A stretch of 21,864 bases of DNA. Source: a virus. Below the pieces are notes generated by a model. That model did not search any database. It saw only the letters and a list, made by a program, of their open reading frames with translations, and was not told where the DNA came from. The stretch lies in IMG/VR virus record IMGVR_UViG_3300035701_000332, positions 1 through 21,864 of that record, one strand, 5' to 3'. Of the stretch, positions 507 to 21,313 are shown in pieces. The position numbers and the translations under genes were made by a program. Every line of letters begins with the position of its first letter. Position 1 is the first letter of the stretch.

Positions 507-3500
507 ATGGCTTTTCCAAATTTTACAGGCGATTATATAGCGAACACTTATCAAAGAGTAGTTCAATATGCAAGTGGAGCTTTTTATGACGGTACTGGTA
601 GTTTAATACCTACATCGATTTTAGGTCAAGGCATAACCTCTTATTACCTTAATGATGCTGTAACAGATATCGCAGGGTATGACAGTTTACATGATATAAA
701 CAATTATGTAACATCATCTTTAGCATCAGAACCATTAGCTGCTGATAATACAGAGCAGTTAATAAAAGCATTTATTACCGATCCTGGATATCCTGGTGTA
801 ACATTCATTCCAGCAGGTACTTGTGCTTTATATTACGATAGTCAAAAAACTTCAGGAGCCGCAGCTACAGTTTATTACACTTACTATAAATTATATGTTA
901 GAAACACTGCGAGTGTTGAAACGTTAATATATACTTCTGATGAATCTACACATGATAATTCGACATCATTAAAAGTAAATTTTGTACTTGGTACTATTCT
1001 TCCACCTGGTATTAATATAAATTCTAGTGATCGCCTTGTTCTTAAAGTATACGGTCGAACAGAATCAAACACTTGTACAATTACAATATATTATGATGGG
1101 AATACAGGTACAAGATTTGCGTTACCTGCTAATTTACCTAATGTATATTCAACATGGAGTGTGGGAGGTAATTCGTTTGGCGGTAATACCACACAAAGTA
1201 TAGGAACGTTAACAGATGACGCTTTTGTTATAAAAACCAATAATGTTGAAAGAATAAAATTTTTAGGAGGAGTTGGATCAACATCTGTCGTCATTGGAAG
1301 AAACGGCCCTGGTGGCGGCGCATTAATATTAGGAGGTAGAAATAATCTCCCAGGTGATAGTAATTATCCTGGGTTTTTATATACAGATTATATTGCACCT
1401 CCATACTTTGACTCAGTAATTGATTTTACATCATTTGCTGGAGCATTAACCTTTAGAATGGACTTCGCAAATAAAATACTTAGCGGTCCAACTGCATCTT
1501 TTTATTATGGTAATTTTTACAACAATTTAATAGTAAGTGGTGGAATAACTGGATCATTACAAGGGACATCTTCATTCTCAACAGCTCCTATTGCATTAAC
1601 AGGATCATCACTTTACTCAGTCGATACAAGTCAAGTAAATAGTAATGGATCTCTTTTTTTTGGAGTAAATGCAGGTTATCAAGCATCGAATGCAGAAGCA
1701 TCAAACTTTTTTGGATTAAATGCAGGTTATCAAGCTGCTTGGGCATTTAAATCAAACTTTTTTGGATTAAATGCAGGTTATCAAGCATATAGTGCTTCAT
1801 ATAGTTCTTTCTTTGGGCAACAGGCAGGTTTTCAAGCAACGTATGCAAGTAATGCAAATTTCTTTGGCACCTATGCTGGATATTTAGGAGTTAATTGTTC
1901 TAATTCTACATTTTTTGGGTATGTATCTGGGTATCAAGCATATAATGGGTATCAATCTACATTTATGGGGTATGGTGCTGGAGCGTATGCTAGTGAAGCC
2001 CATGATTCAATGTTTATTGGGTACCAAGCAGGGATGTTAGCTGGTAGTGCTTCGTATTCTAATTTTATTGGATATAGAGCAGGTGAAAGTTCTATTAATG
2101 CCCACGATTCAAACTTCTTTGGTGACTTTGCTGGATTTCAAGCCACTAATGCTTATGGGTCAAACTTCTTTGGATTAGATGCAGGTTATCAAGCATATAG
2201 TGCTTCGTATTCTAACTTCTTTGGTTGGAATGCAGGTAATGGAGCAACTTTAGCTAATGATTCAAATTTTCACGGTCATGGTGCAGGACAGAATGCAGTG
2301 TCTGCTTCTCAGTCTAACTTTTATGGATATTTAGCAGGGTATGGTGCTACTAAAGCAAACCAAGCAAACTTCTTTGGTAATACTGCCGGGTATGAAGCAT
2401 CACAATCAGCAGATTCAAACTTCTTTGGAGCGATATCTGGTTATCAAGCATATAATGCTTTTCAATCTAATTTCTTTGGAAGAGGTGCTGGGCAGGCAGC
2501 TACTAATGCAAGTAATGCAAATTTCTTTGGATATACCACTGGTTATCAAGCATCGAATGCAAATAATTCAAACTTTATTGGACAAGCAGCTGGGTTCCAA
2601 GCTATTAATGCAGAAAAATCAAACTTCTTTGGATATCAAGCTGGTATTGTAGCTACTAATGCATACCAGTCTAACTTCTTTGGATTCCAAACAGGATATC
2701 TTTCTGATAATTCACATAATTCAAATTTCTTTGGATACAGGGCAGGATTTCAAGCTTACTTTTCATATGGATCAAATTTCTTTGGATTGCAAGCAGGTGA
2801 AAATTGCGATAGTGCTTATGAGTCTAACTTCTTTGGCTCCTTAGCAGGAAATCTTGCTTATAGTTCTTCATATTCTAACTTCTTTGGATATAATGCAGGA
2901 TATACTGCACGTATTGCTCAATTTTCAAATTTCTTTGGATATCAAGCAGGATATCAAGCACATGAAGCTAATAGATCAACCTTTTTTGGATACTCTGCTG
3001 GGTATCAAGCATATAGTGCTTCAAATGCGAACTTTATGGGTCGTGAGGCAGGGTATCAAGCCACTACTGCTAATGATTCTAATTTTTATGGAGCAGCGTC
3101 TGGGTATATAGCTTCTGCTGCAGATCATTCAAACTTTTTTGGAGTAAATGCTGGTGGATATGCTACAAGTGCTTCATATAGTAATTTCTTTGGATACAAT
3201 GCAGGGTATTCTGCTTCAGCAGCATCGTATTCGACATTATTTGGCCTACAAGCCGGGTATAGATATCCTGGTTCAGCAGGTATTGGTTCTAATAATATTA
3301 TTTTTGGTACAAATATTACATTAGCAGATAATACAGCTAATGGAATAAATATAGGAGGTGTATTATTTGGAACAGGAACATATTCAACTATATCAGGAAA
3401 TCCATTCTCAGGATCTAATAATGGTAAGATAGGTATTAATCAACCTAATCCAGTTGCTACATTTGATGTATCTGGATCAGGTAATTTCACAAATGGATTA

Positions 3501-3674
3501 TCAGTAACAGGTTCCTTGAACATTACAGGAAGTAATGCAGTACTTACTCTAGCACCTTATATAGGAGCATTACCAACAACTGGAATACCATCCGGATCAT
3601 TTGCTAATTCAGGTTCAGGAGCTAACTTAAAACCATATTTTTGGAATGGAGCTACTTGGACTGCACTGTTTTAA
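507..3674 (+). CDS. Long repeat-containing tail fibre / adhesin
   Basis: A 1055-residue protein, probably a host-binding fibre. The N-terminus has RVVQ (residues 17-20) and YDGTGS (27-32), a pattern shared with the next gene and probably a virion anchor. Residues 40-380 look beta-rich and include a GSLQGTSSFS-type linker near 349-358. Residues 382-925 are 32 contiguous 17-residue repeats with consensus S-N-F-F-G-x-x-A-G-Y-Q-A-x-x-A-x-x and no insertions or deletions. The tail (926-1055) has a GKIGIN segment, Gly/Ser/Asn-rich sequence and a short end containing WNGATW. The regular Gly/Ala/aromatic spacing suggests a beta-solenoid or trimeric beta-roll shaft, recalling YadA-head-like repeats, which are shorter. 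No chaperone or peptidase domain is obvious. The start is the first ATG after the promoter-like element; no Shine-Dalgarno is present. The fibre role is likely; the receptor is unknown. Confidence 0.85.
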   Translation: MAFPNFTGDYIANTYQRVVQYASGAFYDGTGSLIPTSILGQGITSYYLNDAVTDIAGYDSLHDINNYVTSSLASEPLAADNTEQLIKAFITDPGYPGVTFIPAGTCALYYDSQKTSGAAATVYYTYYKLYVRNTASVETLIYTSDESTHDNSTSLKVNFVLGTILPPGININSSDRLVLKVYGRTESNTCTITIYYDGNTGTRFALPANLPNVYSTWSVGGNSFGGNTTQSIGTLTDDAFVIKTNNVERIKFLGGVGSTSVVIGRNGPGGGALILGGRNNLPGDSNYPGFLYTDYIAPPYFDSVIDFTSFAGALTFRMDFANKILSGPTASFYYGNFYNNLIVSGGITGSLQGTSSFSTAPIALTGSSLYSVDTSQVNSNGSLFFGVNAGYQASNAEASNFFGLNAGYQAAWAFKSNFFGLNAGYQAYSASYSSFFGQQAGFQATYASNANFFGTYAGYLGVNCSNSTFFGYVSGYQAYNGYQSTFMGYGAGAYASEAHDSMFIGYQAGMLAGSASYSNFIGYRAGESSINAHDSNFFGDFAGFQATNAYGSNFFGLDAGYQAYSASYSNFFGWNAGNGATLANDSNFHGHGAGQNAVSASQSNFYGYLAGYGATKANQANFFGNTAGYEASQSADSNFFGAISGYQAYNAFQSNFFGRGAGQAATNASNANFFGYTTGYQASNANNSNFIGQAAGFQAINAEKSNFFGYQAGIVATNAYQSNFFGFQTGYLSDNSHNSNFFGYRAGFQAYFSYGSNFFGLQAGENCDSAYESNFFGSLAGNLAYSSSYSNFFGYNAGYTARIAQFSNFFGYQAGYQAHEANRSTFFGYSAGYQAYSASNANFMGREAGYQATTANDSNFYGAASGYIASAADHSNFFGVNAGGYATSASYSNFFGYNAGYSASAASYSTLFGLQAGYRYPGSAGIGSNNIIFGTNITLADNTANGINIGGVLFGTGTYSTISGNPFSGSNNGKIGINQPNPVATFDVSGSGNFTNGLSVTGSLNITGSNAVLTLAPYIGALPTTGIPSGSFANSGSGANLKPYFWNGATWTALF
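1650..3281 (+). repeat. 32 tandem 51-base coding repeats (17 residues each)
   Basis: The units start every 51 bases with no length change: the first S codon is at 1650 and the 32nd at 3231. Most units begin TCAAACTTCTTTGG or TCTAACTTCTTTGG. Units 2 (1701) and 3 (1752) share their first 35 bases exactly. Units 3 and 11 (2160) differ at only 3 of 51 bases although eight units apart. Other units have drifted mainly at residues 6-7 and 13-17, while F3, G5 and G9 are nearly always kept. Confidence 0.95.
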
Positions 3675-3720: not shown

Positions 3721-4173
3721 ATGCCAGGACCTTCAGATTTATTTGCACTACCGATATCAAGTTCGTATAATAGGGTAGTACAATTTGTTACTGGTTCCAT
3801 TTATGATGGAACTGGAAGTATGATGTCTAGTTCTATGCTTACGTATAGATTTGAAATTGGTACTAAAACAGGTGATGGAACTGCGATACCAATTGGATCC
3901 AAAGGAATTAAATCAATAGATGTTAATGGTACAGCAGTATCATGGACATTAGTGTCTGACGTAGCAGCAACTGTATCATGTTCATTATGGAAATCAAACA
4001 AAGCAATACCTACATCAGCAAATAATATTTTTACTGCTTCTTTAACATCTGCTGGAACACAATTAGGTAGTGGATCGATAAACGTAGCAGTTGCTCAAGG
4101 AGATTTATGTAGGTTTGAAGTAATGTCAAATAATAGTGCAACATATCTATTTTTAGAAGTAAGAATTATATAA
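3721..4173 (+). CDS. Short fibre-like protein sharing the N-terminal anchor motif
   Basis: A 150-residue protein. RVVQ (18-21) and YDGTGS (28-33) align in order and spacing with the N-terminus of the 1055-residue fibre upstream (Y-x-RVVQ, then YDGTGS about ten residues on). The rest is Ser/Thr/Gly-rich with alternating hydrophobics ending in a hydrophobic strand, consistent with one beta-sandwich of the kind common in phage fibre and collar proteins. The natural reading is an anchor plus a single small head domain, such as a short fibre or an adaptor. It is followed after 4 bases by the 655-residue gene, so the two are probably co-transcribed. No Shine-Dalgarno precedes the start. A virion role is likely; its exact place on the particle is unknown. 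Confidence 0.75.
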   Translation: MPGPSDLFALPISSSYNRVVQFVTGSIYDGTGSMMSSSMLTYRFEIGTKTGDGTAIPIGSKGIKSIDVNGTAVSWTLVSDVAATVSCSLWKSNKAIPTSANNIFTASLTSAGTQLGSGSINVAVAQGDLCRFEVMSNNSATYLFLEVRII

Positions 4174-7920: not shown

Positions 7921-8514
7921 ATGATAAAATTCAATACGCAATGGTTTTCTGTATTCATAATATTAGTACTAGTGATTTTATTAGTACTGCAGAGATCGTG
8001 TACCAAACCTAGTATTAACGACCACCCTATTATTGTAACTACTATCGATACTCTTTTGGTACCAGGAAAAGATAGTATTGTTTATAAACCAAAGCCATAC
8101 AAAGTAATATACAGAGATACAATTGAAATTCCTTCAAAAGTTGATACATCTGCTATTCTTAAAGATTACTTTGCTAAAGTTTCATATAATGATACTATAA
8201 AGGTAGGGGAGTACGGGTATATATTATTACAAGATACAATAACAGAAAATAGAATTGCTTCAAGACAAAAAATTGATAAATTTAGTATTCCGGTAATTAC
8301 CACAACAACAACCATAACAAATCCCCCTCTTAAAACAACACAACTATACATTGGTCCTGAAATAGCAGGAAATGCTACCTATCCAATTAATTATTTTGGA
8401 GGTAATATTGTATTAAAAACAAAACAAGATCAAATGTACAACGCTGGAATAGGAATATCAAATGGAGGAACCACATTTAAAATAGGGATGGCATGGAAGA
8501 TCAAAATCAAGTAA
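7921..8514 (+). CDS. Membrane-anchored protein with beta-rich C-terminus
   Basis: A 197-residue protein. Residues 8-25 form one hydrophobic segment (WFSVFIILVLVILLVLQ) followed by R-S-C, so it is a single-pass membrane protein or, less likely, a lipoprotein with the Cys near residue 27. The middle is rich in DT/Thr/Ile pairs (DTLLVPG, RDTIEIPS, DYFAK, DTITENRIASR). From memory this pattern is frequent in small envelope proteins of Bacteroidetes phages and prophages, which I could not check. The last 60 residues alternate Gly and hydrophobics like short outer-membrane strands. Its end overlaps the terminase start by 22 bases. Possible roles are cell-envelope disruption (spanin-like) or exclusion; neither is shown by a motif. 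Confidence 0.75.
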   Translation: MIKFNTQWFSVFIILVLVILLVLQRSCTKPSINDHPIIVTTIDTLLVPGKDSIVYKPKPYKVIYRDTIEIPSKVDTSAILKDYFAKVSYNDTIKVGEYGYILLQDTITENRIASRQKIDKFSIPVITTTTTITNPPLKTTQLYIGPEIAGNATYPINYFGGNIVLKTKQDQMYNAGIGISNGGTTFKIGMAWKIKIK

Positions 8515-10097
8515 CTCAACAGTCTATAAAAGAGACTATAAAATTAGAGTTTATTAGATGCGGTCAAGATTCAGTATACTTTATAAAGAAGTATGTTATG
8601 ATTCAACATCCTATTAGAGGACGTATTCCTTTTGACCTGTTTGTATTTCAAGAAAAAGTATTAAATTTATTTGAACCGCATCAGTATTTAATCGTTAATA
8701 AATCTAGACAGTTAGGTATATCAACATTAGTAGCTGCGTATTCATTATGGTTAATGATATTTCATACAGATAAAAACATACTTGTTGTTGCTACTAAACA
8801 AGATACAGCAAAAAACTTAGTTACTAAGATTTCATTTGCATATGAAAATCTTCCATCTTGGATGAAAAAGATGGCACCCACAGAGTTTAATAACAAATTA
8901 AGTATGAGATTTATGAATGGATCTCAAATTAAAGCTGTAGCCGCAGCCACTGATGCAGGACGTTCTGAGGGTGCTTCTTTATTAGTACTAGATGAAGCAG
9001 CGTTTATTGATAATATTGAAACAATATTTACTGCTGCACAGCCTACTCTTTCTACTGGCGGTAAATGTATTGCAATTTCAACCCCTAATGGTACTGGTAA
9101 TTGGTTTCATAAAGAATTTACAAAAGGTGAAACTGGAGAAGGGAAATTCGTATCAGTAAGATTACCGTGGACAATACACCCAGAAAGAAATGAACATTGG
9201 AGAAAAGAACAAAATCAAATATTAGGTATTAGACAAGCAGCCCAGGAATGCGATTGTGACTTCACAACATCTGGTGCTACTGTAATAGAACCAGACGTAA
9301 TAAAATGGTATGACCAAAATATAAAACCTCCAATTGAAAAGAGGTTTATAGATCAAAATTTATGGATATGGAAATATCCTGAACCTCATAAAATTTACGT
9401 TACTATTGTTGATACAGCTAGGGGGGATGGGAATGACTATTCAACAATACAAATAATGGATGCTGAAACATGCGAACAGGTAGCTGAGTATAAAGGGCAA
9501 TTAGATACAAGAGATTTTGGTAATTTAGCTGTTAATGTTGCAACTGAATATAATGATTCATTACTTGTAATTGAAAATACAAACGTAGGATGGGATGTTG
9601 TTCAAACAGCTCTTGCGAGAGAATATAGAAATTTATATTACTCTCCTAGAACAGAAGCTGCAATGACAAACATTGAAGTGTACTTAAATAGATACGATAA
9701 AGGAGATGGAATGGTACCTGGGTTTTCTAACTCAACTAGAACCAGGCCTCTTGTAATTTCTAAATATACTTCTTACATGCATGAAAAATCATGTACTATT
9801 AATTCAAAAAGATTAATGGATGAAACTAAAACATTTATTTGGAGAAATGGCAAAGCACAAGCTTTAGAAACATATAACGACGATTTAATAATGGCTTGGG
9901 GTATTGGATTGTTTTTAAGAGACACCACTTTAAGGTATCGACAAACAGCTATGGATTTATCGAGAACAGCACTAGATAACATTCAATCTTCAAATTTGAT
10001 ACTAAAAGAGAAGCAATATACAAGGTATGATAAGGGGGATGGATGGGAAATGCAAGATCCTTACGGAAATACACTAGATTTAAAATGGTTACTGTAA
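8493..10097 (+). CDS. 17: Terminase large subunit (T4 gp17-like DNA-packaging motor)
   Basis: A 534-residue protein that translocates DNA into the prohead with its N-terminal ATPase and cuts the concatemer with its C-terminal nuclease. Visible motifs: Walker A-like SRQLGIST (71-78), Walker B LLVLDEA (163-169; D167, E168), coupling motif STPNGTGN (196-203), and RNase H-like nuclease acidic residues at D307 (VDTARGDGNDY), E361 (VIENTN) and D463/D464 (NDDLIMA). T4 gp17 has SRQLGKTT at the first motif; here Lys is replaced by Ile, as in deviant Walker A forms with the basic residue earlier (K70 or R72). It is shorter than T4 gp17 (610 residues). The conserved N-terminal part (IRCGQDSVYF...IQHP) supports the ATG at 8493 despite the 22-base overlap. 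It is followed directly by the portal gene, its docking partner. Confidence 0.95.
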   Translation: MEDQNQVTQQSIKETIKLEFIRCGQDSVYFIKKYVMIQHPIRGRIPFDLFVFQEKVLNLFEPHQYLIVNKSRQLGISTLVAAYSLWLMIFHTDKNILVVATKQDTAKNLVTKISFAYENLPSWMKKMAPTEFNNKLSMRFMNGSQIKAVAAATDAGRSEGASLLVLDEAAFIDNIETIFTAAQPTLSTGGKCIAISTPNGTGNWFHKEFTKGETGEGKFVSVRLPWTIHPERNEHWRKEQNQILGIRQAAQECDCDFTTSGATVIEPDVIKWYDQNIKPPIEKRFIDQNLWIWKYPEPHKIYVTIVDTARGDGNDYSTIQIMDAETCEQVAEYKGQLDTRDFGNLAVNVATEYNDSLLVIENTNVGWDVVQTALAREYRNLYYSPRTEAAMTNIEVYLNRYDKGDGMVPGFSNSTRTRPLVISKYTSYMHEKSCTINSKRLMDETKTFIWRNGKAQALETYNDDLIMAWGIGLFLRDTTLRYRQTAMDLSRTALDNIQSSNLILKEKQYTRYDKGDGWEMQDPYGNTLDLKWLL

Positions 10098-10104
10098 AAA
10101 ACTA

Positions 10105-10114
10105 AATATTTATA
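10105..10114 (+). promoter_or_regulatory. Putative late promoter element (AATATTTATA) before the portal gene
   Basis: Lies in the 29-base gap between terminase and portal, 12 bases before the ATG at 10127. Same element as at the other junctions; function inferred. Confidence 0.5.
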
Positions 10115-10126
10115 ACAAATAGTAAA

Positions 10127-12073
10127 ATGGCTGAGAACACACTTTTTTCGGATTTAAAAAGATTGTTTTCTTCTGACGTAATGATAAGAAACGTTGGAGG
10201 GAACCAATTAAAGGTTATAGACACTGCTAAAATACAGCAAAATGGTGTTCTACAAACAAATGCACTGGTAGATAGGTTTAGAAAGGTATATACAACTTCT
10301 AATGCTTATGCATACAATTATAACAATAATCAAAACTACCAAACACTTAAATTACAACTCTATATCGACTATGAAGGAATGGACACCCATGCTATCATAG
10401 CTTCAGCACTAGATATTCTAGCTGATGAATGTTGTTTAGAGAATGAAGCAGGTGAAATATTACAAATTAGATCTAATGATGAAAATATTCAAAAGATTTT
10501 ATACAACTTATTCTATGATGTATTGAATATTGAATTCAATTTATGGTCATGGGTAAGAAATATGTGTAAGTTTGGTGATTTCTTTTTAAAATTAGAAATT
10601 GCTGAAAAGTTTGGAGTATATAATGTTATTCCTTTTTCACCATATGGTTTGATTAGGGAAGAAGGATTAGATCCAAACAATCCATCATATGTAAGATTTA
10701 GATATGATCCTAACGTAATGACAACTTATAACCAAACAGGATATGCAGCGTTGTTAAATTATGGATTAAAAGATGAAAAAGATTTAACATTTGAAAATTT
10801 TGAAATGGCTCACTTTAGATTAGTAGGTGATGTCAATTTCTTACCATACGGTCGTTCCTATCTTGAACCAGCCCGTAAGACTTTCAAACAATTAGTATTG
10901 CAAGAAGATGCGATGATGATTCATAGAATTGTTAGAGCACCTGAAAGAAGAATTTTCTTTATTAACGTTGGATCTATTCCTCCTAATGAAGTAGAAAATT
11001 ATATGCAAAAGCTCATTTCAAAAATGAAAAGAGTTCCATTTATTGATCCACAAACAGGTCAATACAATTTAAAATACAACGTACAAAACATGCTTGAAGA
11101 CTTCTACATTCCAGTTAGAGGTAATGATACAGCAACAAAGATTGATACTGCAAAAGGATTAGAATATGATGGTATCAGTGACGTTGAATATTTTAGAGAT
11201 TTATTATTTGCAGCTTTACGTATTCCAAAAGCATTCTTAGGATATGAAAAAGATTTAACTGGTAAAGCAACATTAGCTGCAGAAGATATTAGATTTGCAA
11301 GAACGATTAGTCGTTTACAAAAAATTATTATAAGTGAATTAACAAAGATAGCTTTAGTTCATTTATATACACAAGGGTATACAGATGAAACAGTAACAAA
11401 CTTTGAATTATCTTTGACCAACCCTTCAATCATTTATGAACAAGAAAGGATTGCATTGTGGAAAGAAAAAGTAGAACTTGCTTCACAATTAATTGAAAAT
11501 AATTTATTACCTACTGAATGGATTTATGATAATATATTCCAATTTAGTGAAGATAAGTATGATGAATTGAGAGACTTGATTATAGCGGATAAGAGAAGAT
11601 TATTCAGATATAATCAAATTGAAAATGAAGGAAATGATCCATTAGCATCTGGTGAAGCATTTGGAACACCAGGTCAAATTGCTAGTATGTATGGTGGTAA
11701 TAGTAATACTACATCAGGAGCACTTCCAGTAGGATATAATGAGAAAAACCCGAATGAACCAACTCACAAACCAGGTCGCCCTACTGAAAAAATAACTGAC
11801 ACCAATACTGCATTAGATGCATTGGGTGCTGATAGACTAGGAAAGACAGACATAGGTAAAGCAGCTTCTGAAGGAGAAAGCTCTAAAACTATTAAACACA
11901 AGTTTATTGGAGGAAGTCCTCTGGCACTAGAAAATGAAAATAGAGGTACAAAAGAGATGTATTTACGTAATAAATCAATGTTAGAAACAATGAAAGGATT
12001 ACGTCGTAAAACTAAGTTATATGAAGAAGCTTCTTTTATGGACGAATCTAATATTAAAGACGATAACGAGTAA
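10127..12073 (+). CDS. 20: Portal vertex protein (T4 gp20-like)
   Basis: A 648-residue protein expected to form the dodecameric ring at one capsid vertex, through which gp17 pumps DNA and to which the neck binds. T4-family features are the early segment DYEGMDTHAIIASALDILADE (about residues 83-103), the wing region with SPYGLIREEG, and the central stretch with GRSYLEPARKTFKQL followed by RIVRAPERRIFFINVG (about 242-281). Further on, AALRIPKAFLGYEKDLTGKATLA (about 364-386) is a portal hallmark preceding the clip and crown helices. The last 120 residues are polar and probably flexible. The usual length is about 520-570 residues, so this one is long at the C-terminus. The TAA stop lies at 12071-12073, overlapping the next promoter-like element. 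Confidence 0.92.
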   Translation: MAENTLFSDLKRLFSSDVMIRNVGGNQLKVIDTAKIQQNGVLQTNALVDRFRKVYTTSNAYAYNYNNNQNYQTLKLQLYIDYEGMDTHAIIASALDILADECCLENEAGEILQIRSNDENIQKILYNLFYDVLNIEFNLWSWVRNMCKFGDFFLKLEIAEKFGVYNVIPFSPYGLIREEGLDPNNPSYVRFRYDPNVMTTYNQTGYAALLNYGLKDEKDLTFENFEMAHFRLVGDVNFLPYGRSYLEPARKTFKQLVLQEDAMMIHRIVRAPERRIFFINVGSIPPNEVENYMQKLISKMKRVPFIDPQTGQYNLKYNVQNMLEDFYIPVRGNDTATKIDTAKGLEYDGISDVEYFRDLLFAALRIPKAFLGYEKDLTGKATLAAEDIRFARTISRLQKIIISELTKIALVHLYTQGYTDETVTNFELSLTNPSIIYEQERIALWKEKVELASQLIENNLLPTEWIYDNIFQFSEDKYDELRDLIIADKRRLFRYNQIENEGNDPLASGEAFGTPGQIASMYGGNSNTTSGALPVGYNEKNPNEPTHKPGRPTEKITDTNTALDALGADRLGKTDIGKAASEGESSKTIKHKFIGGSPLALENENRGTKEMYLRNKSMLETMKGLRRKTKLYEEASFMDESNIKDDNE

Positions 12074-12081
12074 TATTTATA
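12072..12081 (+). promoter_or_regulatory. Putative late promoter element (AATATTTATA) overlapping the portal stop
   Basis: The element begins inside the portal stop codon and ends only 6 bases before the ATG at 12088. If it is a -10 element, transcripts would start at or next to that ATG, so the small gene would be leaderless or the promoter would serve mainly the 290-residue gene at 12260. The 18-mer at 12071-12088 is identical to 478-495. Confidence 0.45.
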
Positions 12082-12087
12082 ATAGAT

Positions 12088-12258
12088 ATGAAATTTAAAA
12101 ATTGGGTTGATGGGTATAGTAAAGAAAAAAATATAGTATTGGAATATGATGAAAAACATCATTTTGATTTAAACGGAAATTTACTATTGCAAGATAAAAT
12201 AAGACAAGAAGAAATTAAAAGTTATTTGCGTTGTAAATTTATAAGAATAAAAAAATAA
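12088..12258 (+). CDS. Small charged protein directly after the portal (56 aa)
   Basis: A complete 56-codon frame begins ATG AAA TTT AAA AAT TGG and ends TAA at 12256-12258. It fills the space between the portal and the 290-residue gene, leaving one base before the next ATG, which supports it as real. The product is rich in Lys, Glu, Asp and Ile, with W6 and one Cys; it is probably helical with no membrane segment. In T4 the gene right after 20 is 67, a small prohead core protein of 80 residues, so the position suggests a core role. I see no sequence proof of homology. Confidence 0.6.
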   Translation: MKFKNWVDGYSKEKNIVLEYDEKHHFDLNGNLLLQDKIRQEEIKSYLRCKFIRIKK

Positions 12259-12259
12259 T

Positions 12260-13132
12260 ATGGATACCAATATAACCCGCCATTCAAAATATAAAAATAC
12301 AGGCATAGTCTTTGAATTGCTTGTAAGACAGATAACCTCAGATATGATGCGTAATCAAGAATCTGAATCTGTTAGAATTTTAAAGAAATTCTATAATAAA
12401 AAAAGTGAATTGCTTAAAGAGTTAAATCTTTATAAAGTATTATATTCAACAAAAAATCTCAATGAATCTAAAGGAAGTATTATTATAGATACGGTTCTTG
12501 AACAGAGTAAAAAGCTTGATAGAGAAAAACTAAACAAAGAGAAATACAATATAGTTAAGGAAATCAAATTGAAATACAATATTGATGACTTTTTTAAAAA
12601 CAAAGTAAAAGATTATAAAATATATGCATCTATATATACGTTACTTGAAATATATAACAATGCATCATTTAAAAACACCGATCAATTACTAACAAATAAA
12701 ATTAATATTTTAGAACATATTACTTCACCTGAAGTAAAAAGTGTTGATGCAGATATCGACTTCTTTATGAATCAAGATAAAGAAATTAGAATATTATCAT
12801 TTAGAATATTACTTGAAAAATTCAATTCACAGTATCAAAGTTTAATACCTGATCAAAAAATGGTATTAAAAGAGTACATATATAACATATCTGATACAGT
12901 TACTTTGAAAAAATTTTTTAACACTAAGTTTCAAGAAATTAAGAAAGTATTATCTGAATGTATTAATAAGATAGATGATAAAGTAACAAAAATCAAAATA
13001 CAAGAATTGATAGAAGTTATCAAACCTATTTTACCTAATCAATCAATTAAAGATGAACATGCAATCTCATTAATGCATTATTATGAGTTAATAAAAGAAT
13101 TAAAGGTAGTAATTGATGAAAAAGCAAAATAA
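12260..13132 (+). CDS. Uncharacterised helical, lysine-rich protein of the head gene cluster
   Basis: A 290-residue protein, strongly Lys/Ile/Glu/Asn-rich and predicted almost entirely helical. The N-terminus has ITRHSKYKNTGIVFELLVRQI (around residues 4-24, the best-looking conserved part). The rest has leucine/isoleucine-rich helices with no catalytic motif, signal peptide or membrane segment. It starts one base after the 56-residue gene, and its last 17 bases overlap the next small gene. Lying between portal and protease, it sits where T4 keeps genes 67 and 68, but it is much larger than either. A prohead core or assembly role is inferred from position only. Confidence 0.75.
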   Translation: MDTNITRHSKYKNTGIVFELLVRQITSDMMRNQESESVRILKKFYNKKSELLKELNLYKVLYSTKNLNESKGSIIIDTVLEQSKKLDREKLNKEKYNIVKEIKLKYNIDDFFKNKVKDYKIYASIYTLLEIYNNASFKNTDQLLTNKINILEHITSPEVKSVDADIDFFMNQDKEIRILSFRILLEKFNSQYQSLIPDQKMVLKEYIYNISDTVTLKKFFNTKFQEIKKVLSECINKIDDKVTKIKIQELIEVIKPILPNQSIKDEHAISLMHYYELIKELKVVIDEKAK

Positions 13133-13265
13133 ACAATTAACTCCTGAAGAACAAAAACAATTTCATTTGAAATTGCAAGAAGAGATGAGAAAGAAATTAA
13201 CTCAAGAAAAAACCAAAGGGGTTAAATTCCCATCTAAAGCATTTGACTACATAAACATATGGTAA
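13116..13265 (+). CDS. Small overlapping protein (49 aa)
   Basis: A complete 49-codon frame starts with ATG at 13116, inside the end of the 290-residue gene (17-base overlap), and stops with TAA at 13263-13265, inside the start of the 258-residue gene (7-base overlap). Overlap at both ends, filling the whole gap, is the usual signature of a real phage gene. The product is Lys/Gln/Glu-rich: a helical segment with LTPEEQKQFHLKLQEEMRKK (residues 8-27), then a short end with FPSKAFDYINIW. I do not recognise it. Translational coupling to both neighbours is likely. Confidence 0.6.
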   Translation: MKKQNKQLTPEEQKQFHLKLQEEMRKKLTQEKTKGVKFPSKAFDYINIW

Positions 13266-14035
13266 ATAAAAAAGAACAAGTCAAAAAATATTTAGTTAAG
13301 TCAGTTAAAAAAGCACTTAAAGAAAATGTAGTAACAGGTGGTGGTGCTCCTGCTATATCTAATCCTGTTACAACAGGCGGTACTGGAGAAGCTCATCAAG
13401 GTGGAAAAAAAATTAGAGTTAAAAAAAATTTTAAAGAAACTTTTACAAAAGCAATAACAGGTAATCCTAGATTTGCTAAAAATGTAAAAGAAATAAGAAC
13501 TTCATCTTTTAACATCCCTATTGAAAAGTTAGTATCTTGGGCATCTAAAAATGTATTACATGCTAATGTACCTCCATATCCTGAAATTCAAAGATATGCT
13601 GAAGAAAACGATACTACTGTTGAAAATTTAGAGAAGATGTCAAAGTTCTATTTATCAAACATTGAAATGTTCGGACCTAGAAAAGGAGTATATGCTGATG
13701 TATTGAAAGATTTAATTTCAAATATTAAAGAAATAACATTTACGCAGAATTCAATTCATGACAAACCGCCTTTAAATTCTATTAATGAAATAAGATACGG
13801 TCAATTCACAAAACAAAATTCTACTAGAACTCCACGTGAAACTCTTCATAAAGCAATTAAAGAAATTCATAAGAGAGTTAAAGAAGTAAAAAAAATAATG
13901 GAATTTACTTCTAGAATGAAAACAGAATTTAAAGATAGATACTCAGCTCAATATATGGAAAGAACTAATAAGGCATTAAGTTCTTTACAAACAGAATTAG
14001 CTGAATTATATAAGCATTTTAAACAAATTAAGTAA
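13259..14035 (+). CDS. Uncharacterised protein, possible internal or core head protein
   Basis: A 258-residue basic protein of unrecognised family. The first 22 residues are Lys-rich and end ALKE (19-22), followed by NVVTGGGAPAIS and a Gly/Thr-rich linker to about residue 50. This resembles the start of the major capsid protein, where LVTE is followed by AVTTGGG, so a gp21-type cleavage after E22 is possible. Residues 60-160 appear folded, with aromatic and Pro positions (PPYPEIQRYAEEN). The last 70 residues form long charged helices. It overlaps the small genes on both sides, by 7 bases and by 1 base. The coding call is firm; the internal-protein idea is inference. Confidence 0.75.
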   Translation: MVNKKEQVKKYLVKSVKKALKENVVTGGGAPAISNPVTTGGTGEAHQGGKKIRVKKNFKETFTKAITGNPRFAKNVKEIRTSSFNIPIEKLVSWASKNVLHANVPPYPEIQRYAEENDTTVENLEKMSKFYLSNIEMFGPRKGVYADVLKDLISNIKEITFTQNSIHDKPPLNSINEIRYGQFTKQNSTRTPRETLHKAIKEIHKRVKEVKKIMEFTSRMKTEFKDRYSAQYMERTNKALSSLQTELAELYKHFKQIK

Positions 14036-14169
14036 TGGCAACGTCAAAAACAGTGTATTTTATCAAGAGAAACAAAAAGAAGAACAAAGGTGTGCATTCA
14101 AAAAATTCTCAAAGCAGTAATAAAGGATCTAAGAACTACAGTAAGCCTTATGTAGGACAAGGAAGATAA
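14035..14169 (+). CDS. Small very basic protein (44 aa)
   Basis: The ATG at 14035 overlaps the preceding stop by one base (TAATG), and the frame ends TAA at 14167-14169, just before a promoter-like element. The 44 residues carry many Lys/Arg: KRNKKKNKGVHSKNSQ (11-26), then Ser/Asn/Lys-rich sequence and the end KPYVGQGR. The only acidic group is the C-terminal carboxylate. I recall similar short basic proteins ending in a GQGR-like motif in other T4-like phages, but could not verify this. The charge suggests binding to DNA or to the acidic scaffold/core proteins nearby. Confidence 0.65.
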   Translation: MATSKTVYFIKRNKKKNKGVHSKNSQSSNKGSKNYSKPYVGQGR

Positions 14170-14179
14170 GATATTTATA
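14170..14179 (+). promoter_or_regulatory. Putative late promoter element (GATATTTATA)
   Basis: Immediately follows the stop of the 44-residue gene and ends 22 bases before the ATG at 14202. Same recurrent element; it would drive the acidic protein and the prohead protease. Confidence 0.5.
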
Positions 14180-14201
14180 AACATAATAATATAATAATTC
14201 C

Positions 14202-16217
14202 ATGAGCGTTCAAAATTTATATAATAAATACAAAACAGGTAAGATCTCAAAATACAACTTTCTTGAAGCAATAAGAAAAGATGAGAACTTACCTTGGATT
14301 ACCAATTTAAATTCAATAACTGAGGTTATATCTATTTTAAAAGGTAAAAACGTCATTTGGGAAGATAAAAATGTTAAGTGGCATGATGCTCATTTCGAAG
14401 GCGATGGTGGTTTAGAAGAAGTTGAAACAGCATATGATGACGATGATGAATTAAGTCAACCTGCTGGAGCAACTCCTGTTTCTCCTGAATCTCTTGGTGG
14501 AACATCTGATGCAGATGCATCTGGATATGATCCATCATTAGCATATGGTCATATTGGTAATGTAAATGAAGAGGATGATGATTTCTCTGATTTCTCTGAT
14601 GACTTTCCAATGAGTATGGAATATGATGATGATCCAATGGACGCAACTATGATTGGATCACCAGAAGATGAATTTGGATTTGGAGATGATGATAATCCAG
14701 AAGACCAAGGATCATTTGAAAATCCTGAAGATCATTTTGGATTTAAAGACGGTGGTGAATTTGATGATGAAGGAAATGAACTTCCAGGTGAAGTAAATGA
14801 TAACGGGATGACCACTGATGATGATCAAAGTACTTCTGGTGAAGAAGAATGGACAGATCCAGCAGGTGGCACTCATCGTGGTGATGAAGAAGATCCAGCA
14901 GCAATGTATAGAGAAAATAAAGGTATTGCTCCTGGTATGGATGGTGCTGATGAATATGATGTACCATATACCTTTGGTGAAATAACAGTTGGTAAAGAAA
15001 AAAATAGACCAAATTATAAAAAAGGTCAAAATTCAGTACAAGATATTGTAACCTACGTATCAAAAAATCCTGGCAAGTCTGAAAATGAAATTATGCAAGG
15101 TTCTTTTGGATTTGATCGTAATAATGATAGTACAAGTAATAAGAAGTTTGCAGGCCTGTTAAGAAGAGCATTATCAAAAGGACTAATAGTAAGAACAAAA
15201 AAAATTGATACAGGTAATACTAAATATTTTTATTCTTTGCCTGAATCTGACGGTAGTGTATCATCACCTCAATACCAAGAAGGAGAACAAGTTTCTTTAA
15301 ATGAAGGGAAAGGATATGTATGTACTATCGATACTGTTAACCCATACGAATTCAAACGTGGTATAAATTGGGAATCAGGATTAACATATAGTAGCATTCC
15401 TGATTGGGGATTCAAATTCATGGATCAAGAAAAATATAAGAAATTAGTAGATAAGGTGTTAGCTAATTTAACAAAAGATTCTACATATTATTCTAAGAAA
15501 TTAGCAAGTGTAAAACCAACTAATAAACCTGATCTAGATTCTAAAGCAAATTTTGCACCTAAAAAATCAAAACGATATGATGTCGCTGTAGCTTTTAAAC
15601 CTGGTGAAAAAAATCTTGATAAAAGAGAAGGTAATATAATGAAAACTGTTGGTAAGCTTGAAAAAGCTAATACAAAAGACACTTTAGGTAAAAAAGAAGT
15701 AGGTGGTGGTACAACAGTTAAAGTAAAAACATTCAAAGCTCCAGGCTCAGGTGGTAAAATGAAGAAATTCAAAGCTTTAAAAGAATCTTTAGTTAACCAC
15801 TTTAAAAAAAAAGGATTGACTGAGATAGCAGTATCTCAAGTATCTAGTTTACAAGCATTTCTTAATGCAATAAAAGCATGTAATGTTACGTACTTATCTG
15901 AGTATGTAAAATCTAAAACAGACGACGAATTAGTATTTAAAATGCCAGGTGGTAGATACATAGATAATGATCGTTTTGATGATCTTAAAAAACATTTATC
16001 TGGAGATGGGTATACTTTATCAGAAGTAGATTACAGTGATGAAGATCATTGGGATTTTAATTATGTAGTACACAAACCTGATGTAGATGAAGCTTTTGCT
16101 CAGAAAACACCCGAAGGAGAAACACTTGATATAACAAGCGATCCCGGAGGAGCTGCTTCGGAGCTTACAACAAAAGCAAAGAAACTTGGAGTTCAAGTAA
16201 AATCTACAAAACTATAA
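14202..16217 (+). CDS. Large acidic head-cluster protein with winged-helix-like segment
   Basis: A 671-residue protein with clear zones. Residues 1-50 form a compact helical start (LYNKYKTGKISKYNFLEAIRKD...LPWIT). Residues 66-260 are extremely acidic with many Asp/Glu/Gly and DDD runs, probably disordered. Residues 276-346 (15027-15239) read like a winged helix: SVQDIVTYVSKNPGKSENEI, a recognition-helix-like KKFAGLLRRALSKGL, then a strand hairpin ending in TKYFYSLP. Residues 365-430 are a mixed segment, 435-525 a basic linker, and 525-630 a second folded part ending WDFNYVVHKP. It sits directly before the prohead protease (2-base gap) in the place of T4 core genes, suggesting a prohead core or internal capsid protein. 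No homologue is recognised with certainty. Confidence 0.75.
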   Translation: MSVQNLYNKYKTGKISKYNFLEAIRKDENLPWITNLNSITEVISILKGKNVIWEDKNVKWHDAHFEGDGGLEEVETAYDDDDELSQPAGATPVSPESLGGTSDADASGYDPSLAYGHIGNVNEEDDDFSDFSDDFPMSMEYDDDPMDATMIGSPEDEFGFGDDDNPEDQGSFENPEDHFGFKDGGEFDDEGNELPGEVNDNGMTTDDDQSTSGEEEWTDPAGGTHRGDEEDPAAMYRENKGIAPGMDGADEYDVPYTFGEITVGKEKNRPNYKKGQNSVQDIVTYVSKNPGKSENEIMQGSFGFDRNNDSTSNKKFAGLLRRALSKGLIVRTKKIDTGNTKYFYSLPESDGSVSSPQYQEGEQVSLNEGKGYVCTIDTVNPYEFKRGINWESGLTYSSIPDWGFKFMDQEKYKKLVDKVLANLTKDSTYYSKKLASVKPTNKPDLDSKANFAPKKSKRYDVAVAFKPGEKNLDKREGNIMKTVGKLEKANTKDTLGKKEVGGGTTVKVKTFKAPGSGGKMKKFKALKESLVNHFKKKGLTEIAVSQVSSLQAFLNAIKACNVTYLSEYVKSKTDDELVFKMPGGRYIDNDRFDDLKKHLSGDGYTLSEVDYSDEDHWDFNYVVHKPDVDEAFAQKTPEGETLDITSDPGGAASELTTKAKKLGVQVKSTKL

Positions 16218-16219
16218 TT

Positions 16220-16849
16220 ATGGAAAGACAACTTCTAATTGAATATCTTCCATTTACTCTTTCGCAACAACAGTTGCGTGAAGCAGTAAGTAATCCAACT
16301 AAAAATTTAATTGTTAGTGGAAAAATACAAGCTGCAAATAAACCTAATGCTAATAAAAGAATTTATCCTGGCGATACACTTCGTAGAGAAGTTGAAAAAT
16401 ATATTAAAGGTCCAATTGCAGAAAATAGAGCTTTGGGTGAATTAGATCATCCAGAGTCTTCAGTAGTTAATTTAAAGAATGCATCTCATAACATTATTAA
16501 ATTATGGTGGGAAGCTGATGATCTATTAGCTAACATTGAAATCTTACCTACACCATCTGGTAATATATTAAAAACATTATTTGCTAATGGTATCAAAGTA
16601 GGTATTTCATCAAGAGCGATGGGGTCGGTAAGTACGATAGATGAAAATACATTTAAGGTGGAAGATGACTTAGAATTATTATGTTGGGACTTTGTTTCCA
16701 CTCCTTCCACATACGGATCATTTATGGCTCCAGTCAATTTAAATGAGTCATATACTCCGTCAGAAATAAAAATTATAAACAAGTATTCTAAAGTTAATAG
16801 AATAATTTCTGACATACTTTGTACGCAAGGTTTCTGTTGCGTAAAATAA
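16220..16849 (+). CDS. 21: Prohead core protease (T4 gp21-like)
   Basis: A 209-residue serine protease, close to T4 gp21 (212), that digests the scaffold and trims capsid proteins inside the prohead before DNA packaging. Family features: the early strand LIVSGKIQAANKPNANKRIYP (about 30-50), the catalytic-His region ALGELDHPES (H77), the Ser region KVGISSRAMGS (S130/S131) and WDFVSTPS (about 156-163), whose Asp could be the third catalytic residue. The C-terminal tail has three cysteines (C201, C206, C207), unusual for the family as I know it. It lies 2 bases after the acidic protein and upstream of scaffold and capsid, the T4 order 21-22-23. T4 protease cuts after Glu in (Leu/Ile)-x-Glu, and such a site is visible in the capsid protein here. 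Confidence 0.92.
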   Translation: MERQLLIEYLPFTLSQQQLREAVSNPTKNLIVSGKIQAANKPNANKRIYPGDTLRREVEKYIKGPIAENRALGELDHPESSVVNLKNASHNIIKLWWEADDLLANIEILPTPSGNILKTLFANGIKVGISSRAMGSVSTIDENTFKVEDDLELLCWDFVSTPSTYGSFMAPVNLNESYTPSEIKIINKYSKVNRIISDILCTQGFCCVK

Positions 16850-16975
16850 TTTAGTACAAAATAACATTCTCCGGAAATTGCATATATTTATGGATATATG
16901 CTATTCTACTATAGCATTATTTTTTAGAACGTCGATATTGCTTCATACAATAAGCAATCAAAATTAAACAAAAAA
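16850..16975 (+). promoter_or_regulatory. 126-base leader before scaffold and capsid genes, with variant promoter element and hairpins
   Basis: The longest gene-free stretch in the window. It holds TATATTTATG (16883-16892), one base off the recurrent ATATTTATA core, 83 bases before the ATG at 16976. Three short inverted repeats are present: 16880-16887 with 16894-16901 (8 bp, 6-base loop), 16899-16904 with 16911-16916 (6 bp, sharing bases with the first), and 16937-16943 with 16952-16958 (7 bp). There is no U-run after them as in a terminator. The region may be a structured mRNA leader or a processing site for the two most abundant head proteins. Confidence 0.4.
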
Positions 16976-18343
16976 ATGGGTAACGAAACAAAAGATCTGT
17001 ACAGAGAAGCTGTGGCAGATGCAAAAAAAGTCCGTGATGCTGCTATTGCCAACGCGAGAATGGCACTAGAAGAAACTATCACTCCAAGAATCCAAGAAAT
17101 GCTTCGTAAGAAACTTACTGAAGAAGAAGATTCAATGGATGAAGTTGATGCTAGCGGGCAAGGTGTTGATCCTGAAACTGGTGCATTACCAGGTAAGGAA
17201 ATACACGAAGAAGTAACAGAAGAATCACTTGATGAAATCTTAGCTGAACTTCAAAATGAAGAATCACTAGAAGAAGCTCCAGTTGAAGAAGGAGAAGCTC
17301 CAGTTGAAGAAGGATTTGAATTTGAAGCTAAAGATGACGAAGGTGGTGAAGAAGGTGCTGAAGAAGCTGGAGAAGAAGCTGGTGAAGGTGAAGAAGGAGC
17401 TGCAGAAGTTCCTGATATGACTGGAGCTGAAGCGGGCGAAGGCGAACAAGCAGACGATCAAGAAGTTGTAGAATTAACAGTTGGTGAATTAAAAGGTATC
17501 ATCGCAGATACTTTAATGTCATTAGGAATAGGTGGTGCTGAAGGCAATTCATCTGCTGATGGTATTGATGAACCAACATTAGAACCAGCTAACGCTGGAA
17601 CAGGTGATGTTCAACCTGGCCAAGACGATGAAGAATTATCTTTAGATGAAGTATTAGCTTCATTAGATGAAACTGAAGACGAACCTATGGCAGAAAGAAA
17701 ACAAGGGTTGTTCCCTGGTAAAGGTAAAGAAGCAGCAAAAGATAATCCCAAAGTAAAAGGAACTAATGTTACTTCAAGAATACCAAAAGCATCTCCTAAA
17801 GCTGAAACAAAATTAGGAACAGGTATGAAGAAAACCTCTCCTTCAAAAGATTACGCTGCTACCAAAGCTGGTAGTGGTGAACATTTATTGAAAGAAAAAG
17901 GAAAATTAGGAACAGGAATGAAGAAAGTATCTGCTTCAACAGATTACGCTGGACCTAAAGCAGGTAGTGGACAACACCTTGCTGAAGCAATCAAAACTAT
18001 TAATTTCTTGAAAAAAGAAATGAATAACATGAATTTGATCAATGCTAAACTTCTTTATGCAAACAAACTTTTCAAAACTAAAACATTGAACGAAGGTCAA
18101 AAAGCTAAAATTCTTACAGCATTCGACAATTTAACATCGATTAAAGATGTTAAGAGAGTGTATGAGACATTATCTAATACCTCCTTTAAGGCTACAGTTG
18201 GAAAGAAAAAACCTCTTAAGGAATCATTAGGATTCGCTTCTAAACCATCAGGAACAAAGGCTCCAGCCGGTCTGATCGTTGAACAACAAGATGAGGTTGT
18301 AACTAGATTACAAGAATTGGCTGGAATAGTAAAACGTAAGTAA
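16976..18343 (+). CDS. 22: Prohead scaffold / core protein (T4 gp22-like)
   Basis: A 455-residue protein. It starts with a charged helix (MGNETKDLYREAV...RMALEETITPRIQEMLRKKL, 1-47). Residues 48-240 are highly acidic and low-complexity with repeated EE-G-E units, then a Lys/Gly/Ser-rich region holds a 31-residue direct duplication (KLGTGMKK...DYA...KAGSG, starting at 279 and 310). The C-terminal helical part (about 340-410) has NLINAKLLYANKLF, LTAFDNLTSIKDVKRVYETL, the pattern I associate with gp22 scaffolds of T4-like phages. It is longer than T4 gp22 (269 residues), mostly through the acidic insert. The place between protease and capsid genes fits. It is expected to nucleate prohead assembly and then be digested by gp21. 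No strong Shine-Dalgarno precedes the ATG. Confidence 0.85.
   Translation: MGNETKDLYREAVADAKKVRDAAIANARMALEETITPRIQEMLRKKLTEEEDSMDEVDASGQGVDPETGALPGKEIHEEVTEESLDEILAELQNEESLEEAPVEEGEAPVEEGFEFEAKDDEGGEEGAEEAGEEAGEGEEGAAEVPDMTGAEAGEGEQADDQEVVELTVGELKGIIADTLMSLGIGGAEGNSSADGIDEPTLEPANAGTGDVQPGQDDEELSLDEVLASLDETEDEPMAERKQGLFPGKGKEAAKDNPKVKGTNVTSRIPKASPKAETKLGTGMKKTSPSKDYAATKAGSGEHLLKEKGKLGTGMKKVSASTDYAGPKAGSGQHLAEAIKTINFLKKEMNNMNLINAKLLYANKLFKTKTLNEGQKAKILTAFDNLTSIKDVKRVYETLSNTSFKATVGKKKPLKESLGFASKPSGTKAPAGLIVEQQDEVVTRLQELAGIVKRK
17810..17995 (+). repeat. Direct duplication of a 31-residue unit in the scaffold
   Basis: Two adjacent 93-base units start at 17810 and 17903. Both begin AAA TTA GGA ACA GG, and their proteins share K-L-G-T-G-M-K-K-x-S-x-S-x-D-Y-A-x-x-K-A-G-S-G-x-H-L. 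The nucleotide copies have diverged, so the duplication is not recent. Confidence 0.85.
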
Positions 18344-18373
18344 TTAAAAAAAATTTAAAACAAAAAACAAAGT

Positions 18374-20026
18374 ATGAGTAATTTATTAAGCGAACTTATC
18401 AACGAATCTGCTGATTTCACCAAACACAAAAAGGTGGCACAGAGATTAGCTGCTAAGTGGGACAGAAGTGGTCTTTTAACAGGGTTAGAAGGCTACGAAA
18501 AAACTAATACTGCGGTAATGTTAGAAAGTCAAGCTAAACAACTTGTTACAGAAGCTGTAACAACTGGTGGTGGTGTAACGACTGGTGCAACATTTACAGT
18601 AGGTGTTGGTGAACAATGGGCAGGCGTTGCTCTTCCATTGGTACGTAAAGTATTCGGAATGATTTCTTCAAAAGATTTCGTTTCCGTGCAACCTATGAAT
18701 ATGCCAGCTGGTTTGGTATTCTATTTGGATTTCCAATATGGTAATGATAAAACTCCATTCAGCAAAACAGGTTCATTATTTGGTTTCACATCAGCTAACT
18801 TTGGTAACCAAGCAGCTGGTGGTTTGTATGGTGCAGGTAGATATGGATATTCTAGCAACCAATTCGTTGTAGCCACTGGCTCATCAACACTTGGTCTTAA
18901 CTTTAACTCTTCATCAATTGCAGATGTTAACTTTAACGCATTATATTCTAGTTCAGTGGGTTCAATTAAGTACATCATTGTTAACTCATCAACATTAGTT
19001 GATGCTGATTTAACAGCTGTTCGTTCATTTATTATCACTGGTTCATCTGTAACTGCAGCTATGAACTTACAGGAATTTACAGTGGTATCTGGATCTACGA
19101 TTCAGTTCTATTTAAACAACCCTGGTGTTACTACACAATCTTATGCTATACATTACAGTAAGCAAACAGACTTTAACAAGCGTGGTGACTTTGAAGATCG
19201 TGACTCTACACAAGGTACTTCAGTTCCTAACTCATTGAGCTCAACCTCAATTGTGATCCCTACGATTGCAATTCAAATGAGATCTGAAGCCATCTCAGCC
19301 AAGACTCGTAAGTTGAAAGCAGAATGGACTCCAGAATTGGCACAAGACTTGGATAAATTCCAAAACATTGATGCCGAAGCTGAATTGACAAGTATGCTTG
19401 GAGAGTATATTGCTCTTGAAATTGACTTGGAAATATTGGATATGCTTATCCAAAACGTTCCATCTACATCAACTGATGTATGGTCAGTAGTAGCAAACAG
19501 ATTCTACAACTTAACCAACTCAACATACACAGATAAAGCTGCGGGTGCTGGTGGTTATTATAATACGCAAGGTGGTTGGTTCCAAACAATGGGAACTAAG
19601 TTGCAAAAATTAAGCAACATTATTCACCAAAGAACATTGCGTGGTGGTGCTAACTTTATGGTTGTTTCTCCTTCAGTTGCAACAATTATCGAATCCATTC
19701 CTGGATTTGCTAGTGATAGCGACGGAGCAGCAGACACAATGAAGTTTGCGTTCGGTGTACAAAAAGTGGGTCAATTTAATAACAGATACAAGGTTTACAA
19801 AAACCCTTATTTCTTAGAAAACTTGATCTTGATAGGTCTACGTGGTAGTCAATTCTTGGAATGCGGTGCGGTATACGCTCCTTATGTTCCTTTGATCATG
19901 ACACCTTTAGTATACGATCCTAACACATTTACTCCTAAAAAGGGTATTATGACAAGATACGCTAAGAAGATGGTAAGGCCCGAGTTTTTCGCAAAACTAT
20001 GGGTTGCTGATCTTGATCAAGTATAA
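18374..20026 (+). CDS. 23: Major capsid protein (T4 gp23-like, HK97 fold)
   Basis: A 550-residue capsid subunit; T4 gp23 has 521. The N-terminal 60 residues form a probable scaffold-targeting propeptide ending LVTE (57-60), followed by AVTTGGG; T4 gp23 is cut after the E of FLTE before AEIGG, so cleavage after E60 (base 18553) is predicted. Next come LPLVRKVFGMISSKDFVSVQPMNMPAG, matching the T4 region around CGVQPMNSPTGQ, and YGND. A Ser/Thr/Asn-rich insertion-like part (about residues 150-265) probably forms a surface domain. The second half has REKAEWTPEL-like KLKAEWTPELAQDLDKFQNIDAEAELTSMLGEYIALEID and RGGANFMVVSP, both characteristic. It is followed by the window's only clear intrinsic terminator. 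Codon use is slightly richer in C-ending codons than in neighbours, fitting high expression. Confidence 0.95.
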   Translation: MSNLLSELINESADFTKHKKVAQRLAAKWDRSGLLTGLEGYEKTNTAVMLESQAKQLVTEAVTTGGGVTTGATFTVGVGEQWAGVALPLVRKVFGMISSKDFVSVQPMNMPAGLVFYLDFQYGNDKTPFSKTGSLFGFTSANFGNQAAGGLYGAGRYGYSSNQFVVATGSSTLGLNFNSSSIADVNFNALYSSSVGSIKYIIVNSSTLVDADLTAVRSFIITGSSVTAAMNLQEFTVVSGSTIQFYLNNPGVTTQSYAIHYSKQTDFNKRGDFEDRDSTQGTSVPNSLSSTSIVIPTIAIQMRSEAISAKTRKLKAEWTPELAQDLDKFQNIDAEAELTSMLGEYIALEIDLEILDMLIQNVPSTSTDVWSVVANRFYNLTNSTYTDKAAGAGGYYNTQGGWFQTMGTKLQKLSNIIHQRTLRGGANFMVVSPSVATIIESIPGFASDSDGAADTMKFAFGVQKVGQFNNRYKVYKNPYFLENLILIGLRGSQFLECGAVYAPYVPLIMTPLVYDPNTFTPKKGIMTRYAKKMVRPEFFAKLWVADLDQV

Positions 20027-20050
20027 TCATTAGAATTATATTGATAATAA

Positions 20051-20080
20051 AAGAGCCGATAGCAATATCGGCTTTTTTTA
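20051..20080 (+). terminator. Intrinsic terminator after the major capsid gene
   Basis: AGCCGATA (20054-20061) pairs perfectly with TATCGGCT (20066-20073) around a GCAA tetraloop, followed by a T-run through 20079 and preceded by an A-run. It lies 27 bases after the capsid stop, in the 104-base gap, and separates the scaffold-capsid unit from the neck genes. Confidence 0.9.
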
Positions 20081-20105
20081 TTTTGTTCGATAATGAATCT
20101 CCATT

Positions 20106-20115
20106 GATATTTATA
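20106..20115 (+). promoter_or_regulatory. Putative late promoter element (GATATTTATA) before the neck gene
   Basis: Placed after the terminator and 15 bases before the ATG at 20131, which is the arrangement expected of a promoter that restarts transcription. The 15-mer at 20106-20120 equals 6165-6179. Confidence 0.55.
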
Positions 20116-20130
20116 TAAAATAACATCCGC

Positions 20131-21309: not shown

Positions 21310-21313
21310 AAGT

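Follow-up and report, generated by a model that had tools for sequence, protein, structure and literature searches.

The YadA-type head, a left-handed parallel beta-roll (Pfam PF05658; YadA, EibD, UspA1, BpaC), is built of long tandem stacks of layers, each of which has two strands. Its motif is GxNSVAIGAxSxAx, each chain forms its own roll with a rise of 4.8 Å per layer, and residue 7 lies near the three-fold axis; UspA1 layers have 15 residues, and the BpaC head contains 42 layers (PMC9543794). The Bdellovibrio MAT fibres (Bd2133, 8OND and 8OJN) are bacterial surface proteins with modular tips and solved trimeric structures (PMC10769870). S74 tailspikes carry an S74 domain, and their NTAIGxxALxxNTTGxx repeats (PHROG 4636, 6002 and 23837) have a period of 17 residues. 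The DNA analysed here (the window, 21,864 nucleotides) is an entire 21.9-kb IMG/VR viral contig, and its gene at 507..3674 probably encodes a tail or receptor-binding fibre, trimeric, with a shaft of 32 widened YadA-type beta-roll turns. The repeat array in this protein is most likely a longer, aromatic version of the known adhesin and tailspike layer repeat.

Genomic setting and gene architecture

The window virus is a T4-like phage, probably with a host of the Flavobacterium type (Bacteroidota). Pfam and PHROG matches identify a T4-like head and packaging module of terminase, portal gp20, protease gp21, capsid gp23 and neck genes at 8493..21802 (+ strand). This module is syntenic with that of Flavobacterium phage immuto, whose terminase, portal, protease and capsid proteins are 45–55% identical to those of the window, and this gene order and these identities suggest that the host is a Flavobacterium-like bacterium. 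The placement of the head module puts the repeat gene in a myovirus structural region, and it is from this context and from the relatives discussed below that we infer a fibre that is part of the virion. The nearby head-gene module would also suit a decoration or capsid fibre with the same fold and another attachment, and relatives match two PHROGs whose category is "head and packaging, virion structural protein". However, phrog_4636, which is matched by relatives as well, is a "tail spike", fibre genes are also found upstream of terminase in T4-like maps, and the C-terminal tip is common to different proteins, as is typical of receptor-binding fibres; we consider the capsid-fibre reading improbable and discuss the protein below as a tail fibre.

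The repeat gene is complete, with an open frame from ATG to stop, and it and all of its parts described below lie on the + strand. It encodes 1055 amino acids, 381 of which precede the array and 130 of which follow it. The protein has no match among Pfam, PHROG, NCBIfam or PDB sequences. In particular, Pfam finds no Peptidase_S74 domain at its C-terminus, which sets it apart from the S74 tailspikes, and, unlike the YadA adhesins, the protein has no detectable C-terminal membrane anchor of a type Vc trimeric autotransporter, since none of its parts matches a Pfam model.

The first 40 residues (507..626, NTYQRVVQYASGAFYDGTGS) form a motif that is probably the segment that anchors the fibre to the virion. 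It is 52% identical over 29 residues to the start of the small protein encoded by the adjacent gene (3721..4173, + strand), and it also begins ORFs of relatives L058 and L086. The sequence YxRVVQxxxGxxYDGTGS is common to the starts of the two adjacent window genes (507-626 and 3721-3840), as would be expected if both proteins dock at one virion site, and the motif is perhaps a common docking tag. A neighbouring gene, at 4178-6145, encodes a 655-residue protein that aligns over 97% of its length, at 28% identity, with a protein encoded by uncultured 735-kb phages. An N-terminal domain follows the motif (residues about 30–199, 594..1103) and resembles a protein of the 642-kb uncultured phage LR756502 (33% identity) and an ORF of L030 (30% identity); the N-terminal 381 residues as a query found no relative in viral contigs and a single match, to one uncultured phage, in phage records. 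Directly ahead of the array is a linker or N-cap (residues 322–381, 1470..1649, ...GTSSFSTAPIALTGSSLYSV...) that occupies the same place in ORFs of L132, L085, L054, L098 and L138.

The array is followed by a C-cap, GSNNIIFGTNITLADNTANGINIGGVLFGTGTY (3282..3434; pattern SNNIIFGTNI..NGINIGG), and the same cap follows 69 classified arrays of relatives. Next is a G-K-I-G-I-N-x-P-N-P-x-x-x-x-D-V-S-G motif typical of trimeric fibre and S74-type proteins (3423..3491); profile A2 of this region matches the Bdellovibrio MAT fibre tips 8OND/8OJN and, weakly, MYRF (7DC3). In the MAT fibres the corresponding segment, G-x-I/V-G-I-N/G-T-x-x-P-x-x-x-L-x-V-x-G, likewise comes after the shaft, but the profile match is confined to this C-terminal segment and excludes the 17-residue array. 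The protein ends in a tip module (residues 973–1055, 3423..3671, ...SGANLKPYFWNGATWTALF), and segments 42–71% identical to it are present in 12 other viral contigs (L002–L013), with the similarity limited to the tip region. The presence of this module on 12 otherwise unmatched viral proteins is consistent with tip exchange.

The 17-residue register

The array consists of 32 back-to-back copies of S-N-F-F-G-x-x-A-G-Y-Q-A-x-x-A-x-x at residues 382–925 (1650..3281; 32 × 51 = 1632 nt) without a single indel, so that the unbroken register of 32 units and 544 residues reported by an earlier, sequence-only reading of this DNA is confirmed at exactly these coordinates. The self-identity at a lag of 17 residues is 0.50, and the maximum in 1000 shuffles of these residues, at any lag from 2 to 59, is 0.17. 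The near-invariance claimed for F3, G5 and G9 is borne out by the counts (31/32, 32/32 and 32/32, respectively). S1 is present in 28 of the 32 copies, position 4 is F, I, M or Y in 31, and A8, A12 and A15 are found in 27, 27 and 25 copies, the exceptions being mostly another small residue. Positions 6–7 and 13–17 had been described as variable; this holds for 6, 7, 13, 14, 16 and 17 but not for 15, which is A or S, and positions 10 and 11 have to be added. The second half of repeat 32 (STLFGLQAGYRYPGSAG) is degenerate and runs into the cap.

The DNA copies of the repeat are on average only 58% identical (46% at third codon positions), and synonymous codons are mixed at the conserved glycines and alanines, indicating that the register is maintained at the protein level. 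Repeats 3 and 11 have 94% DNA identity, which suggests recent copying within an otherwise old array. A wider sample of 1779 family repeats, selected without constraint at positions 3 and 4, shows both of these positions to be 99% hydrophobic; positions 1, 5, 8, 9, 12 and 15 are 96–100% small in the same set, in which the selection itself fixed 5 and 9 and, in part, 8.

Relation to YadA-type layers and predicted fold

The window repeats share with the YadA-type head the S-x-x-hydrophobic-G motif, in which the layer glycine corresponds to the G5 of every copy, as well as the small residues and the long tandem stacks. They differ in their period of exactly 17 rather than 14–15 residues, in F rather than A at position 3, in an additional conserved glycine (G9), in detection by PF05658 that is below threshold or absent, and in having one predicted strand per turn. 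The earlier reading had proposed a comparison with beta-roll family profiles as a check, and Pfam YadA_head (PF05658) has no match in the window. The arrays of relatives support the connection. They start or end by way of 14-residue YadA-type layers (SIAIGxxAxxxxN) that are in the same register, with no linker, and preserve its S-x-x-hydrophobic-G spacing: the array of L087 ends ...STFVGYRAGLNATTACA/SIAIGSCAIPTGPN/QLVLG, that of L100 has the same ending (...SIAIGSCAIPTGPN/QLVLG), and L001 passes from layer to array as SIAIGDGAEALSND/MFVVGLQAGYNAPNASG/SNFLG. Sub-threshold Pfam YadA_head matches fall on such bordering layers in L001, L042, L100 and L103, and further YadA_head matches in L042 and L064 are located elsewhere in those proteins. 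The proposed link to the YadA beta-roll thus has the bordering layers in its favour and the missing PF05658 match, the single strand per turn and the fold-search result described below against it. We note that 14-residue SHAEGxxTxASGxx arrays, which do match Pfam YadA_head (15106-15390 in the L054 record, G009, and 2566-8979 in L042), are found in phage genomes that also contain 17-residue arrays, in the case of L042 within one protein.

A second connection leads to the S74 tailspikes. Their NTAIG-type repeats have the same period and an N/S-x-A/F-I/F-G motif in common with the window repeat, they often share proteins or loci with F-type arrays (for example in L103, L024 and L095), and ORFs that contain them are recognised by phrog_4636 (tail spike), phrog_6002 and phrog_23837. 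The differences are A3 versus F3, L9 versus G9 and N12-T13-T14-G15 versus A12-x-x-A15, and the F-type and A-type 17-residue repeats could not be aligned with each other when their profiles were compared directly; the linkage therefore rests on the methanosarcinal virus vir515 (L017), whose hybrid repeats NSFFGxxAGYxNTTGxx fall between SNFFGxxAGYQAxxAxx and NTAIGxxALxxNTTGxx. Profile comparison links the hybrid to the F-type and NTAIG-type repeats with probabilities of 98% and 95%, scores that may be inflated by the repeats.

An AlphaFold2 monomer model of repeats 23–32 and the C-terminus (63 aligned sequences) has a strand at residues 2–4 of each repeat, and these strands are stacked as a solenoid with pLDDT values of 96–98 in almost the whole ten-repeat stretch; confidence is low for the fold of the last 130 residues. 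One strand per repeat at this confidence supports the earlier idea that one repeat is one solenoid turn, as a monomer prediction by a method that can over-predict solenoids for tandem repeats. A second model, of relative L087, has the same strand pattern and, at lower confidence, extra strands in the array-ending SIAIG and QLVLG layers that are aligned with those of the 17-residue repeats. Foldseek gave no match to solved structures for either model, a silence that may stem from low-complexity handling of exact repeats and is weak evidence rather than proof of a new fold. The highest-ranking predicted viral structure is that of a phage protein called "YadA-like head domain-containing" (40% identity), followed by H9NCD4 and M1HFA2. 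A left-handed hexapeptide helix was rejected, as the matches to such proteins were non-significant.

Two other folds have to be weighed against the beta-roll. DSSP assigns a single 3-residue strand per turn in both models, no solved structure matches by sequence or by fold, and the model confidence drops in the capping layers, all of which would suit a distinct one-strand-per-turn solenoid that has no solved relative and is only capped by abutting YadA-type layers of another fold; such an aromatic solenoid would then be common to environmental phage tail fibres and to secreted fibres of Patescibacteria and Bacteroidota. We think this unlikely, since the capping layers hold the S-x-x-hydrophobic-G register without a linker, AlphaFold2 sets their strands in line with those of the array, and exact structural repeats may defeat a Foldseek search. 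The triple-stranded beta-helix is a frequent type of phage shaft, and hydrophobic residues at both 3 and 4 would suit the core of three interwound chains, as in T4 gp5 or gp34, with each repeat as one strand crossing. This arrangement is very improbable, because the confident monomer model has one strand from each repeat stacked along the same chain and the register is continuous with that of YadA-type layers, which are per-chain rolls (PMC9543794).

The beta-roll fibre that we favour would be organised as follows. Beyond the N-terminal anchor, the 32 repeats would form the shaft, each being one turn and an enlarged version of the 14-residue layer of the YadA head. N2-F3-F4 would be the stacked strand, G5 and G9 would lie in tight turns, the side chains of S1, A8, A12 and A15 would be packed inside the turn, and those of positions 6, 7, 10, 11, 13, 14, 16 and 17 would face the solvent. 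Adjacent strand residues have their side chains on opposite faces, and with both 3 and 4 hydrophobic one row would be inside the turn and the other would form an external stripe as long as the shaft. Position 4 is the counterpart of residue 7 of the YadA-type heads, which is near the three-fold axis (PMC9543794), so that a trimer with a central stripe is likeliest, the stripe being best buried at this axis among the three chains. The S74 trimer chaperone found in some relatives' array proteins and the C-terminal match to the trimeric Bdellovibrio fibres also point to a trimer. Assuming the 4.8 Å rise of YadA-type layers, 32 turns would give a shaft of about 15 nm. The C-cap would close the array, the GKIGIN..NP segment would continue as trimeric beta structure, and the swappable 80-residue tip (...LKPYFWNGATWTALF) would contact the host.

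Distribution of the repeat family

The 17-residue array is not peculiar to the window phage but has a wide distribution in phages and also occurs in some bacteria. A DNA pattern spanning two adjacent repeats matched at least 120 viral stretches and 26 bacterial genome stretches, the latter mostly of Patescibacteria and Bacteroidota; a search of plasmids did not find the repeat domain. The matches listed for a profile built from the window repeats comprise at least 165 ORFs with at least 2313 repeats; neighbouring repeats in these matches are spaced by exactly 17 residues in 1942 cases (the next commonest spacing, 16, occurs 39 times), and their longest uninterrupted run is 37 repeats, or up to 52 with small irregularities. 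The window protein has the features of this family: in-register copies, F3, G5, G9 and small residues at 1, 8, 12 and 15. Its named relatives are Sphingomonas phage PAU gp257, Leptolyngbya phage Lbo-JY46 and vir515. PAU gp257 has the same repeat type (38% identity over the matched pieces) and the same cap, but it is 669 residues long, its array is shorter and its ends differ. The earlier suggestion of a distinct, aromatic-rich 17-residue variant of the YadA-type fold agrees with the in-register layers that border relatives' arrays, but more than 100 viral contigs and 26 bacterial stretches also have this variant, some in longer runs than the window protein. The repeat is not described in the literature searched, coverage of which was partial, and it may still have been described.

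The family is frequently found in environmental phages, and also in Patescibacteria proteins that appear to be secreted; no Pfam, NCBIfam or PHROG model matches the window protein, however, and a structure of the array would supply a name and a template for this common type of fibre module. The 14-residue layers at the array borders hint at a way for a beta-roll to alter its turn length with the stack unbroken, and an array this regular and free of indels lends itself to use as a scaffold whose length can be adjusted. Close relatives with near-identical N-termini have unequal repeat numbers (18 in L104, 22 in L070 and 17 or more in L123), indicating that array length shifts fast.

Bacterial array ORFs begin with a hydrophobic signal-like segment in L142, L144, L145, L148, L149, L153, L159, L162 and L164 (contigs of Patescibacteria and other metagenome-assembled genomes) and likewise in L147 and L152 (Bacteroidota). 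This segment is sometimes followed by PGETLDPxCxPGDxxC, and by these starts the proteins look like secreted surface fibres. The array proteins of L141 and L163 end in S74. Two window proteins encoded within or close to the head module contain short acidic tandem repeats (7155-7204 and 17272-17408); the second is a 455-residue protein, perhaps a scaffold, encoded immediately ahead of the capsid gene. At L020:3322-3893 the array is apparently broken by single-base shifts, where the ORF passes into another frame of the repeat and a one-base-short repeat pattern matches twice; this array appears to be a pseudogene or an assembly error.
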